Shown: in pieces, positions 2,331 through 22,015 of the stretch
Layout of the letters: every line of letters begins with the position of its first letter
How positions within the stretch are numbered: position 1 is the stretch's first letter
The notes under the pieces: generated by a model
Told to the model about the DNA's origin: nothing
Seen by the model: the letters and a program-made list of their open reading frames with translations, nothing else
The model's database searches: none
DNA from: Pyrinomonadaceae bacterium
GTDB taxonomy: Bacteria; Acidobacteriota; Blastocatellia; Pyrinomonadales; Pyrinomonadaceae
Direction of reading: 5' to 3'
Assembly (NCBI GenBank): GCA_025922875.1
Contig: JAICGZ010000029.1
Coordinates: 1-32,870 of the forward strand
Length of the DNA stretch: 32,870 bases
Program-made: the position numbers and the translations under genes

Positions 2331-2681
2331 ATGAACATTCGTAAACGAGCAGCAATGGTGGTAGTTGCTTTTAGTCTTGCCGTCATCTCTATTGCAGTTG
2401 TGAGGACCGTCGGACAAGAAGGAAACGGAAGCGACAGGATAGTTGTTGACCAATGGGAATACCTGGCGGTCGCTGGTCCAAGTACGACAAATTTTTCAGC
2501 GACAAGTTCACCCCGGATGCGAAAGGAACCAAATGCTCCGTTCGGACGTGAGGCATTTGTTTTAGAACAGCACCTTGACAAGCTTGGCGCAAACGGGTGG
2601 GAGCTTGTGGCCGTAGCGGGACCACCAACCGACCCAGCCTACTATTTCAAACGTAGGAAACAAGCGGACAGTCAGCGTTGA
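2331..2681 (+). CDS. Small secreted DUF4177-like protein
   Basis: A protein of 116 residues with a basic N-terminus and hydrophobic stretch (about residues 7-25) that looks like a signal peptide. The mature part carries the pattern QWEYLAVAG, then LDKLGANGWELVAVAG, then YYFKR, which resembles the DUF4177 family of small proteins. Its function is unknown. The start at 2331 is chosen because GGAGG sits at 2321-2325. An upstream in-frame start at 2214 would add a non-signal leader overlapping the divergent ppc start. The stop overlaps an ATG at 2681 that opens the tandem-repeat frame. Confidence 0.75.
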   Translation: MNIRKRAAMVVVAFSLAVISIAVVRTVGQEGNGSDRIVVDQWEYLAVAGPSTTNFSATSSPRMRKEPNAPFGREAFVLEQHLDKLGANGWELVAVAGPPTDPAYYFKRRKQADSQR

Positions 2682-2707
2682 TGGAGTTCGGAGCTTTTAC
2701 TTCTGAT

Positions 2708-2934
2708 ACGGCTGTACCGCCGGATCATACGGCTACGCCGCTGGTTGATACGGCTACGCCGCCGGTTACTACGGCTACGCCGCCGGTTGCTACGCCTACG
2801 CCGCTGGTTGCTACGCCTACGCCGCCGGTTGCTACGGCTACGCCGCCGGTTGCTACGGCTACGCCGCCGGTTGCTACGGCTACGCCGCCGGTTACTACGC
2901 CTACGCCGCCGGTTGCTACGGCTACGCCGCCGGA
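2708..2934 (+). repeat. 21-bp tandem repeat array, ten full units plus a partial one
   Basis: Ten full units of 21 bp and one 17-bp partial unit, with consensus ACG-GCT-ACG-CCG-CCG-GTT-GCT. Variation is confined mostly to GCT/CCT, GTT-GCT/GTT-ACT and CCG/CTG. Units 1 and 2 are the most degenerate. Many units contain the mini-palindrome CGGC-TAC-GCCG. Because 21 is divisible by three, several frames stay open. The frame starting at ATG 2681, which overlaps the preceding stop, would give a 97-residue Thr/Pro/Ala/Val protein of heptad TATPPVA. I see no signal peptide or homology supporting translation, so I call it a repeat. It is not CRISPR-like because there are no spacers. Confidence 0.9.
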
Positions 2935-3094
2935 TGTGAGGCGGGGCTCTGCCCCGCCGTCTAGATTTGAGTGATCAGGTTGGGCTGTGCCCCTGGTCCG
3001 GGCTCTGCCCCAGTCTTTAAGGCCAGAGGCCGGACCAGGGGGCACAGCCCCGAGGCTAATTGAACCTGACGGCGAGGCATAGCCTCGCCTCACA
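2935..3094. repeat. Nested GC-rich fold-back element
   Basis: The outer arms 2935-2958 and 3071-3094 are imperfect inverted copies, and each is itself a hairpin (GGCGGGGC-TCT-GCCCCGCC and GGCGAGGC-ATA-GCCTCGCC). Inside them, CAGGTT at 2976-2981 pairs with AACCTG at 3063-3068. A 20-bp arm at 2982-3001 pairs with 3030-3050, with one extra G. The whole could fold into one long cruciform or hairpin. The recurring unit is GGC-N3-GCC, which is also found in the adjacent tandem array and at 3099-3110 (GGGCGGCGTAGCC). I see no transposase or coding signal. Confidence 0.8.
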
Positions 3095-4969: not shown

Positions 4970-5010
4970 AATGTTGCTCCTCGTCGCTACCTGACCCTGT
5001 GATCACTGCC

Positions 5011-5541
5011 TCAGACTCGAGTCCATGAGCGCGGTTCATACTCGCGTGCGGCTCCCGAGTCGCAGCTTATTTCCTTTAGTTCATCAGAGTCGCACGTATG
5101 AAACGACACAACGACCATGTCTCTTCCCCCGGGAAAGAACTCGTGCGGCACGCCTTCAGGAATGACGTACCAAATTTCTTCCAGAGAGCAATCCGGGTCG
5201 CCAAACTGTTTCATCTGACGTGAGATCGTTCCCACTTTAGATGTACCCTCACCTTCAATCATCACCATGTGTTGAATGCTGTTTGGATGGTAGTGACAGC
5301 CTGACCGCACGTCTTTTTTAAGCACAAAGATCCAGCTCGATCTTATGCTGTCCGGAAGCGGCGCTGTGAGAGATTGCGGTTCGATGGTGGACCACACAAA
5401 CGGCTCCGGGGTTTGTTGCAGTTGTTGCTTAAGCGTATCAATGAGACTGTGCGTCGTAGGGCGCGTGATTAGTTCCGTGACCGCTTCGTTCAGCTGTGGC
5501 AAGTAATTCGCCGCTACTTCTCGCTCTTCCCGCATAATCAT
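5011..5541 (-). CDS. Cupin-fold protein of unknown substrate
   Basis: A soluble protein of 176 residues. The centre carries a cupin core: SGCHYHPNSIQHMVMIEGEG at about 81-100 supplies the first histidine motif, and EEIWYVIPEGVPHEFFPGGR at about 121-140 followed by MVVVSFHTC supplies the second. The N-terminal 60 residues look helical. Such metal-binding single-domain cupins bind small ligands or act as isomerases or dioxygenases, and the sequence does not tell which. ATG at 5541 is the first start. A second ATG at 5535 has better spacing from the GGAG upstream. It is divergent from the DGPF gene at 5767. Confidence 0.75.
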   Translation of the reverse strand: MIMREEREVAANYLPQLNEAVTELITRPTTHSLIDTLKQQLQQTPEPFVWSTIEPQSLTAPLPDSIRSSWIFVLKKDVRSGCHYHPNSIQHMVMIEGEGTSKVGTISRQMKQFGDPDCSLEEIWYVIPEGVPHEFFPGGRDMVVVSFHTCDSDELKEISCDSGAAREYEPRSWTRV

Positions 5542-11314: not shown

Positions 11315-11347
11315 CCGCCGCGACGCAAAGAGGTCGCGGCGGTTTTT
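11315..11347 (+). terminator. Intrinsic terminator
   Basis: Perfect 10-bp stem CCGCCGCGAC (11315-11324) / GTCGCGGCGG (11333-11342) with an 8-nt loop and TTTTT. It ends the secreted-protein unit and overlaps the end of the convergent peroxiredoxin gene at 11346. Confidence 0.88.
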
Positions 11348-12149
11348 ATTTGAGCGACTTCGCTGCTTCCAGCACTTCCTCCGGTCGTGCACGGTCAAAG
11401 TAGCTTTCCGTTAAGTTGACCCAGCGCACTGTTCCTGATCGATCAACCAGAAACTCAGCGGGCCGTGCGATGTCATTGCCATTCTCTCCGGCGCCGGCAT
11501 GAACCAGGTCATAACGTCGAATTACTTCGATATTCGAATCGGAAAGAAACGTCAAACTATAACCTTCGTTCTGAGCAAGATTGCGTGACGCTTCGGGAGG
11601 ATCGACGCTGATCGCAACCGGACGAATCCCCGCCGCATTGAACTGGTCCAAACTCTTTTCGATGCTCCGTAACTCGGAGTTGCATAATGGTCACCAGTGG
11701 CCTCTGTAGAAAATCAGCAGCACACCTTTCGCTGGATTGCCGTTGACGGGTTGTGACAGGAGTTCCGAAAGAGAGACGGACCGACCTGTCGCGTCAGGAA
11801 GAGTGAAGTCGGGTGCTCGTTGGCCCACTTGTGGCGCGCCAGTCGAAGGTGGTAACCAACGCGCCACGACAAACAGCGAAAAAAGAGATAATCCGATCAC
11901 GGCCAAACCGAGGAGTCCGACGATAGAACTGACAATCCTCGAACGCGTGGGATGTGGGCGATCAGCAGCAAAGCCGCGCCGGATGCCTGCGAAGAGCAAT
12001 ACCGCTGCTATCAAAAACAGCAGGAGGTTGGCCCACGGAAAATCACGCGTGACAGGAAACCAGACAAAGATAAAGAAATAACTGAGAAACGACGCGAAGG
12101 TGAGCAGGAAGCCCACCCACAGCGGCCAGTTCAAACGTCGTGCGTTCAT
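11346..12149 (-). CDS. Membrane-anchored peroxiredoxin-like protein, probable selenoprotein
   Basis: A thioredoxin-fold peroxidase (AhpC/TSA type) expected to reduce peroxides or disulfides outside the cytoplasm. Three membrane segments come first (about residues 10-31, 39-55 and 72-96), then the domain starting GAPQVGQRAPDFTLPDATG. The active-site stretch reads FYRGHW, then TGA at 11693-11691, then PLCNSEL. Homologues have Cys there, so residue 153 is read as selenocysteine in a UxxC pair. Eleven bases after the TGA lies CTCCG-AGTTA-CGGAG (11679-11665), a SECIS-like hairpin. The frame continues intact for 114 more residues, with DPPEASRNLA. The start at 12149 has AGGTGA upstream. Without Sec decoding this would be a nonsense-mutated gene. 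Confidence 0.8.
11665..11693 (-). promoter_or_regulatory. Candidate bacterial SECIS element with UGA codon
   Basis: The TGA at 11693-11691 is followed by 11 nt, then a 5-bp stem CTCCG/CGGAG with loop AGTTA. The loop has G as its second base and starts 16 nt after the UGA. From memory, bacterial SECIS rules require a G in the first two loop bases and a distance of 16-37 nt, and both are met. Confidence 0.65.
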
Positions 12150-12172
12150 ACAATCACCTGTTGGAACATGAT

Positions 12173-12237
12173 TTACAGGATGTTTCAAGATGTTCAGGAT
12201 AACCACCTTGTCAATCCTGTAACATCCTGTAATCCTG
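12173..12237. repeat. ACAGGAT-family fold-back repeat
   Basis: ACAGGATGTT on the left pairs with AACATCCTGT on the right, followed by a further AATCCTGT. It sits in the gap between the VOC gene and the peroxiredoxin gene. The same family occurs at 15368, 16993 and 21965. Confidence 0.7.
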
Positions 12238-12675: not shown

Positions 12676-13053
12676 TTAACGAAGCGGGGCTACCTTCGCC
12701 CGCCCATACGCCACGAACAAGCAGAGAACTCCGATTATGAACGGTGATGCGGCTGCCATCACTCCACCGCCTATGAGCGAAACGACGATCGCCCCAATCA
12801 TGATGATCAATAATCCGATAGCAGCATATATGGTCAGATATTGCTTGCGGCGAAATATGCCCGGCAGGATCAATCCAAGCGCTCCAAGTACTTCACACAA
12901 GCCAATGAATTTAAGAAACCAACCCGGAAACAGAATCGCGTTTGGCGGCGCCATCGAATTCAAAACCTCCGTGGGGATAACCAGCTTCATGCCTCCTGCA
13001 AACAGAAAAGTCAGTGCCAACAGGATCTGAAAGATCCAAAGTAAGATGTTCAT
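12676..13053 (-). CDS. DoxX-family membrane protein
   Basis: A protein of 125 residues with about four membrane helices, starting MNILLWIFQILLALTFLFAGGMKL, as is standard for DoxX-like proteins. Later segments are FPGWFLKFIGLCEVLGALGLILPG and LTIYAAIGLLIIMIGAIVVSLIGGG. The family is often found near redox and ECF-sigma loci, and its substrate is unclear. It begins 13 bp after the DGPF stop and sits 31 bp before the VOC gene, consistent with an operon. Confidence 0.88.
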   Translation of the reverse strand: MNILLWIFQILLALTFLFAGGMKLVIPTEVLNSMAPPNAILFPGWFLKFIGLCEVLGALGLILPGIFRRKQYLTIYAAIGLLIIMIGAIVVSLIGGGVMAAASPFIIGVLCLFVAYGRAKVAPLR

Positions 13054-15367: not shown

Positions 15368-15429
15368 ACAGGATTTGCAAGATTAGCCATGATTTACATG
15401 TTAATCCTGAATAATCTTGTAAATCCTGT
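15368..15429. repeat. ACAGGAT-family fold-back repeat
   Basis: The left arm 15368-15385 and right arm 15412-15429 are 18 bp each with one mismatch (ACAGGATTT and CAAGATTA against TAATCTTG and AAATCCTGT). It lies in the gap between the VOC gene and the phosphatase gene. Confidence 0.8.
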
Positions 15430-16992: not shown

Positions 16993-17046
16993 ACAGGATT
17001 TACAAGATTAGACATGATTTACATGTTCATCTTGATAAATCATGTG
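16993..17046. repeat. ACAGGAT-family fold-back repeat
   Basis: ACAGGATTTACAAGATTAG on the left. The degenerate right side is ATCTTGATAAATCATGT. It fills the gap between kinase and response regulator and touches the kinase stop. Confidence 0.65.
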
Positions 17047-21942: not shown

Positions 21943-21964
21943 GTCTTAAACTCGAAAGTCAGCT

Positions 21965-22015
21965 TTACAGGATTTACATGTAAATCTTGAATAATCCTGT
22001 AAATCCTGTAAAAAG
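21965..22015. repeat. ACAGGAT-family fold-back repeat
   Basis: TACAGGATTTAC on the left pairs perfectly with GTAAATCCTGTA on the right, between the MATE start and the end of the cupin gene. Its core differs from the other copies. Confidence 0.75.

Follow-up and report, generated by a model that had tools for sequence, protein, structure and literature searches.

The window, a 32,870-nucleotide stretch of Pyrinomonadaceae DNA, contains on its minus strand an apparently split gene that, judged from comparative sequence analysis, is very probably one intact selenoprotein gene in which UGA is read as selenocysteine (Sec). The gene (positions 11346 to 12149) would encode a protein of 267 residues, with Sec at position 153 and a TAA stop, and a Pfam domain is recognized on the read-through product. 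In the reading that we hold with high confidence, Sec153 would be inserted by means of a stem-loop in the mRNA, the product would sit in the inner membrane with its redoxin domain in the periplasm, and Sec153 and Cys156 would form a redox pair.

One reading frame crossed by a single UGA

A single frame runs on the minus strand from 12149 to 11346 and is crossed by only one TGA, codon 153 (11691 to 11693). An earlier note on this DNA had described two adjacent minus-strand frames that join in the same frame across one TGA, and reading of the sequence and its translation confirmed this. Four nucleotides before the ATG lies AGGTGA (12154 to 12159, minus strand), which was read from the sequence and resembles a ribosome-binding site. 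The active-site string is FYRGHW-(TGA)-PLCNSEL, in which the sole Cys of the protein, Cys156 (11682 to 11684, minus strand), follows Sec153 as the only U/C pair; the UxxC pair of the earlier note can thus be read directly as U153-P-L-C156.

As had been anticipated for automatic gene calling, the mechanical listing of open reading frames divided the gene at the TGA, and it started the 3' frame at a TTG at 11651. The mechanical existence of that frame speaks for a UGA that is a true stop, with the 3' part a separate gene or dead DNA. However, protein conservation carries on at the codon right after the TGA, ahead of the TTG at 11651, and the redoxin fold predicted by AF2 spans both halves. On these grounds, a true stop followed by a second gene was rejected, and we consider it very improbable.

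Conservation of the UGA among relatives

Matches at 1e-15 were present in 48 of the 119 genomes of the order. Sixteen matches, including the window's own gene, were full length, each with exactly one TGA, and the whole-length matches, with 61 to 69% identity, run across it. In a draw from the phylum, 18 of 396 genomes matched at 1e-40, and each match had one TGA (three of these genomes were already among the known carriers); the selenoprotein gene is thus shared across sampled genomes of the phylum. The matches from the order and from the phylum draw, plus L023 and L147 (the latter found with L107 as the query), make up the 33 long genes analysed here. The nearest named record, the Pyrinomonadaceae MAG contig L022 (69%), is identical to a contig of G099, a genome of the window's own genus, and was dropped from the counts because it is the same contig as L070. 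The copy in G113 (L085) was not counted, since it matches only residues 16 to 85 and 199 to 267; no active site was seen in it (G113:C831:4-400), which points to an internal deletion or an assembly fault.

TGA occupied the FYRG-x-W-TGA codon in 33/33 long genes, own included, with FFRGHW in L105. Close relatives with a Cys codon and no hairpin, named in the earlier note as a refuting case, were looked for and not found: among relatives at 1e-15 in the order or at 1e-40 in the phylum, the long protein was never seen with Cys at this position. The peptide pattern of the scan that gave L023 and L022 carried Cys at the site, so its matches are biased to Cys forms. The alignment with Cys-containing homologues that had been suggested placed Cys at the UGA column in 48 of the 90 wider homologue rows, from which L064 was dropped as a gap artefact. 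This frequent Cys in the wider family is the sole support for a nonsense mutation or sequencing error that has broken a Cys gene at codon 153. Against such an event stand the TGA in every one of the long genes, the whole-length matches in the order that cross it, and the covariation of the hairpin (see below). It was rejected on the conserved TGA and the covariation, and we regard its probability as negligible.

A tree was calculated from 79 of the 90 rows, without nine remote rows (L058 to L063 and L065 to L067), L064 and L022. In it, 32 long genes formed one clade with a support of 100/98, which splits into groups of 26 (100/99) and 6 (99/75), and the Sec/Cys labels require three changes over the 79 rows. 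The tree and the covariation counts do not include L147, and the protein alignment omits L104 and L106, which have no start codon in range.

Short Sec paralogues nest with Cys relatives in the tree, apart from the long clade. The four short Sec rows examined by sequence (L087, L088, L093 and L094) have one hydrophobic N-terminal segment and a UxxC TGA of their own; their hairpin is in the same register as that of the long genes and has a different stem. A single genome may contain as many as three TGA matches (G089 and G094). A relative in a Latescibacterota MAG (L055, near 5001-5444) has TGA at the same column, in FYRGYW-TGA-PHC.

A SECIS-type hairpin downstream of the UGA

The stem-loop CTCCG-AGTTA-CGGAG (11665 to 11679, minus strand) begins 11 nt past the TGA, and its loop AGTTA, with G in second position, begins after 16 nt, exactly as the earlier note had described it. 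With a loop of 5 nt, a stem of 5 bp, G second and a spacing of 16, it falls within the published bSECIS shape rules (loop of 3 to 9 nt, stem of 4 to 16 bp, G in loop position 1 or 2, spacing of 16 to 37). The same model sets an energy limit of -7.5 kcal/mol or lower; the hairpin falls short of it when isolated (-5.6 kcal/mol) and over 48 nt (-7.1 kcal/mol) and passes it once the flanks enter with further pairs (-13.9 kcal/mol over 60 nt). As a single sequence the fold is ordinary (z of -1.11, with 25 of 200 shuffles equally stable or more so), and no Rfam family reached its gathering score in the window.

Covariation was determined in 30 genes, that is, 26 long genes and the four short Sec paralogues named above, which share the register. 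All of the 150 cells were paired, each of the 30 genes pairing at all 5 positions. Double (compensatory) changes were found at 5/5 pairs, a value reached by 17 of 500 shuffles, and the covariation score was 0.568 versus 0.189 in shuffled alignments, with 0/500 shuffles reaching it; the number of further pair types did not go beyond that of the shuffles (121/500). Control registers obtained by sliding paired in 24 to 60% only. When the 26 long genes were analysed alone, 100% were paired, with double changes at two pairs and three pairs invariant; here, the shuffles reached the covariation score in 0/500, the double-change pairs in 35/500 and the pair types in 268/500 cases. RNAalifold, with no structure supplied, returned the same five pairs.

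Synonymous variation is also frozen at the hairpin. Mean synonymous codon identity was 0.87 at codons +4 to +8 versus 0.43 over 129 other columns; none of the 130 windows exceeded this value, and only the one starting a codon earlier equalled it. Asn was encoded by AAC in 25/25, Ser by TCC in 24/24 and Glu by GAG in 26/26 cases, and Leu solely by TTA or TTG (23/23). Because the TGA is present in all 33 long genes and the stem is paired in all 30 aligned genes with compensatory changes, the hairpin is more than a product of chance. Sec decoding with a SECIS, as originally proposed, is strongly supported by the conserved TGA, the covariation, the freeze of synonymous codons and the Sec machinery described below.

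A second hairpin register in a sister subclade

The first hairpin was complete in 26/26 genes of one subclade and in 0/7 of a sister subclade of long genes (L107 to L109, L111 to L113 and L147). In all seven of the latter, CUGCA pairs with UGCAG, giving five pairs and a loop that starts 23 nt after the same UGA. The loop is AGGTT in six genes and CGGGC in L147, where other codons surround it. This stem is invariant across the seven genes and hence shows no covariation, and it was part of the minimum-energy fold in only two (L109 and L111) of six 48-nt stretches. L105, the 24th of the 26 genes in the first subclade, can pair in both registers and might be an intermediate. A putative turnover of the SECIS between the subclades is plausible from these alignments. 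Tentatively, and at somewhat less than even chances, we suggest that the SECIS has moved within one all-Sec orthologous clade, so that Sec insertion would have persisted while its RNA signal was replaced, in the unchanged protein context of a membrane-tethered periplasmic selenol enzyme. In the literature searched, we met no account of a sister subclade with a putative SECIS loop at 23 nt. A comparison of the two subclades, with their hairpins in different registers, would be a natural way to learn what SelB requires for recognition.

Selenocysteine machinery

The genome of the window (6.8 Mb in 542 contigs, 93.5% complete) contains all four components that the earlier note had advised to search for, and their absence, named there as a refutation, was not found. 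tRNA-Sec scored 69.4 bits (RF01852) and has the anticodon tca according to ARAGORN; selA, selB and selD scored 526, 390 and 366 bits, respectively, and selD has one in-frame TGA of its own, in CSGUAAK. A second RF01852 match above the cut-off in this genome, L002 with 51.6 bits, is a serine tRNA; therefore, only matches well above 51.6 bits were counted as tRNA-Sec. A tRNA-Sec of at least 67 bits was present in 28 of the 30 other carrier genomes tested, a sample that leaves out the genomes behind L023 and L147. In the remaining two, G090 (67% complete) gave nothing over the cut-off and G306 (84% complete) a doubtful 55 bits at best. selB passed the cut-off in all carriers of the order except G090, G095 and G099 (13 of 16).

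The complete machinery also bears on the idea that the ribosome passes the UGA by inserting an amino acid other than Sec. Several observations argue against such a read-through: the Sec machinery itself, the Cys of homologues at the column, the SECIS-type hairpin, and the use of UGA as the terminal stop of the same gene in 13/32 long genes, from which it follows that UGA is not reassigned wholesale. Read-through with another residue was rejected for these reasons and is, in our view, highly improbable.

Active site and family placement

On the read-through product, Pfam AhpC-TSA (PF00578) matched residues 108 to 243 (11421 to 11828, minus strand) with 3.4e-28 and 98.5 bits versus a cut-off of 26, and AF2 and Foldseek also place the redoxin domain, with its thioredoxin fold, here. 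The earlier note had put the UGA exactly at the peroxidatic Cys, which is off by three residues. In an alignment to solved peroxiredoxins, the UGA lines up with the Thr of TxxC, and C156 occupies the column of the peroxidatic Cys. Since the UGA is in the Thr column and C156 in the peroxidatic column, the protein belongs with the Prx-like (UxxC) proteins and not with Sec-peroxiredoxin (TxxU). The UGA column is also that of the first Cys of CxxC relatives, and it contains Thr in three rows of the 90-row wider alignment that have the PxxxTxxC motif. The Pro and Thr of peroxiredoxin PxxxTxxC/U are absent from the window protein, their columns being occupied by Arg149 and Sec153. Arg149, Cys156 and a downstream Arg229 are each invariant in 30/30 aligned long proteins; Arg229 aligns with an Arg of 2ywn and corresponds to the catalytic Arg of peroxiredoxins. 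The window protein is a Prx-like redoxin of the UxxC type, preceded by three predicted membrane helices, and its location is probably periplasmic.

No NCBIfam model reached its cut-off for the window protein: the SelL-related NF040769 scored 43.9 bits (curated cut-off, 120), ResA NF002854 scored 42.9 bits (curated cut-off, 170), and NF040737, for PrxU (TxxU), matched weakly with 26.2 bits (cut-off, 270). PrxU is of the same domain family, but Sec is the peroxidatic residue there, whereas here Sec is in the Thr column and Arg149 replaces Pro. The Prx-like thiol:disulfide oxidoreductase selenoproteins (PF00578, UxxC/UxxU) are likewise AhpC/TSA proteins with UxxC in place of the TxxU/C of Prx; the window protein differs from them by the three predicted membrane helices before the domain and by a long clade that is all-Sec in the sample (33/33). 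Prx-like Cys proteins with FYRGxWCPxC, which we take to be CDD PRX_like2 (cd02970), share the FYRG-x-W-(C/U)-P-x-C motif, with Cys at the Sec column; their matches mostly start at about query residue 100, and the three-helix part is therefore missing from most of them. A cd02970 entry with UxxS is present in a review table of selenoproteins. The UxxC arrangement also resembles that of thioredoxin-type selenoproteins. ResA/TlpA proteins are membrane-anchored, probably periplasmic redoxins of the CxxC type, ResA having one helix. The ResA model NF002854 was matched by 30/30 members, with the window protein below the cut-off; in contrast to ResA, the window protein has UxxC and three helices, and Foldseek ranked peroxiredoxins first and a ResA-type chain 29th.

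Predicted membrane topology and proposed mechanism

AF2, run on 30 sequences from the window and the loci, gave a mean pLDDT of 90.6 and a pTM of 0.83, with three helices followed by the redoxin fold. Together with hydropathy, it predicts membrane helices at residues 8 to 26 (12072 to 12128), 39 to 59 (11973 to 12035) and 67 to 93 (11871 to 11951), all on the minus strand, and these predictions agree with the three N-terminal membrane segments noticed earlier. Three or more hydropathy segments were found in 26/32 long genes, two in 5 and none in L106. In a Foldseek search of the PDB, the peroxiredoxins Bcp4, PrxQ and AhpE were within the first ten (TM by target, 0.65 to 0.89). Bcp/PrxQ and AhpE peroxiredoxins are cytosolic, and these best fold matches favour a Sec protein whose redoxin domain is cytoplasmic and acts there as a peroxidase or reductase. 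Against this, the window protein has 2 K/R residues in the N-terminus, 1 in the first loop and 5 in the second loop, and by the positive-inside rule this distribution favours a C-terminal redoxin domain outside the cytoplasm. We therefore consider a cytoplasmic domain unlikely, and the predicted location of the domain is most likely the periplasmic side.

For the periplasmic selenoprotein, we propose the following mechanism. SelB with Sec-tRNA-Sec would bind the stem-loop just past the UGA, and the ribosome would insert Sec at position 153, a step for which the comparative evidence is strong. The product is predicted to be held in the inner membrane by its three N-terminal helices, with the redoxin domain in the periplasm. 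Sec153 and Cys156 would function jointly as a redox pair, in which the selenolate may attack a peroxide or a disulfide, Cys156 would resolve the intermediate to a selenenylsulfide, and a membrane or periplasmic donor would re-reduce the latter.

Relation to published selenoproteins

The general kind is already known. Prx-like UxxC selenoproteins were already in print in 2005, with the Sargasso Sea selenoproteome (PMC1088965); they are listed in tables of PMC13188914 and PMC9312934, and are covered as UXXC in PMC12013277 and in PMC1794560, which gives 3 families and 4 selenoproteins for Acidobacteria. The selenoproteome papers compared mention Acidobacteria or Acidobacteriota between 0 and 2 times only. 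No membrane-anchored Prx-like selenoprotein of Acidobacteriota was found in the open-access literature, as far as its available text goes, among the matches listed. Two entries listed as "Redoxin family protein, UxxC" (HEU0032618.1 and MBA3499694.1) could be of the same group or a relative. With the present gene, the Prx-like UxxC group gains a form predicted to be anchored in the membrane.

Gene neighbourhood and repeats

Upstream of the selenoprotein gene are VOC/glyoxalase-like, DoxX-like and YCII genes and a sigma-70-type factor. Gene neighbourhood revealed no conserved partner, no neighbour cluster being present in more than 5 of the 32 loci. In 6/32 loci (5 of the 31 others and the window's own), the upstream region includes a DoxX-like gene of the same strand; all of these loci are within the taxonomic family of the window, and therefore, we built no partner claim on DoxX. 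The window's DoxX_2 protein (12676 to 13053, minus strand), with a weak MauE match, is a possible electron donor.

Apart from the genes, the window contains an inverted-repeat element built on ACAGGATTTACATGAT (12166-12232, 15368-15429, 16993-17045 and 21964-22012), with arms of 10 to 31 nt and 10 sites at up to 3 mismatches versus 0.13 expected. Genome-wide, 145 sites were found at up to 1 mismatch, versus 0 for the reversed control, and one copy lies just upstream of selD (C115:1036-1051); the element forms a REP-like family. On translation, a short-unit repeat at 2678-3093 of the window yields PPVATATPPV-like strings from one strand and GGVAVATGGV from the opposite strand.
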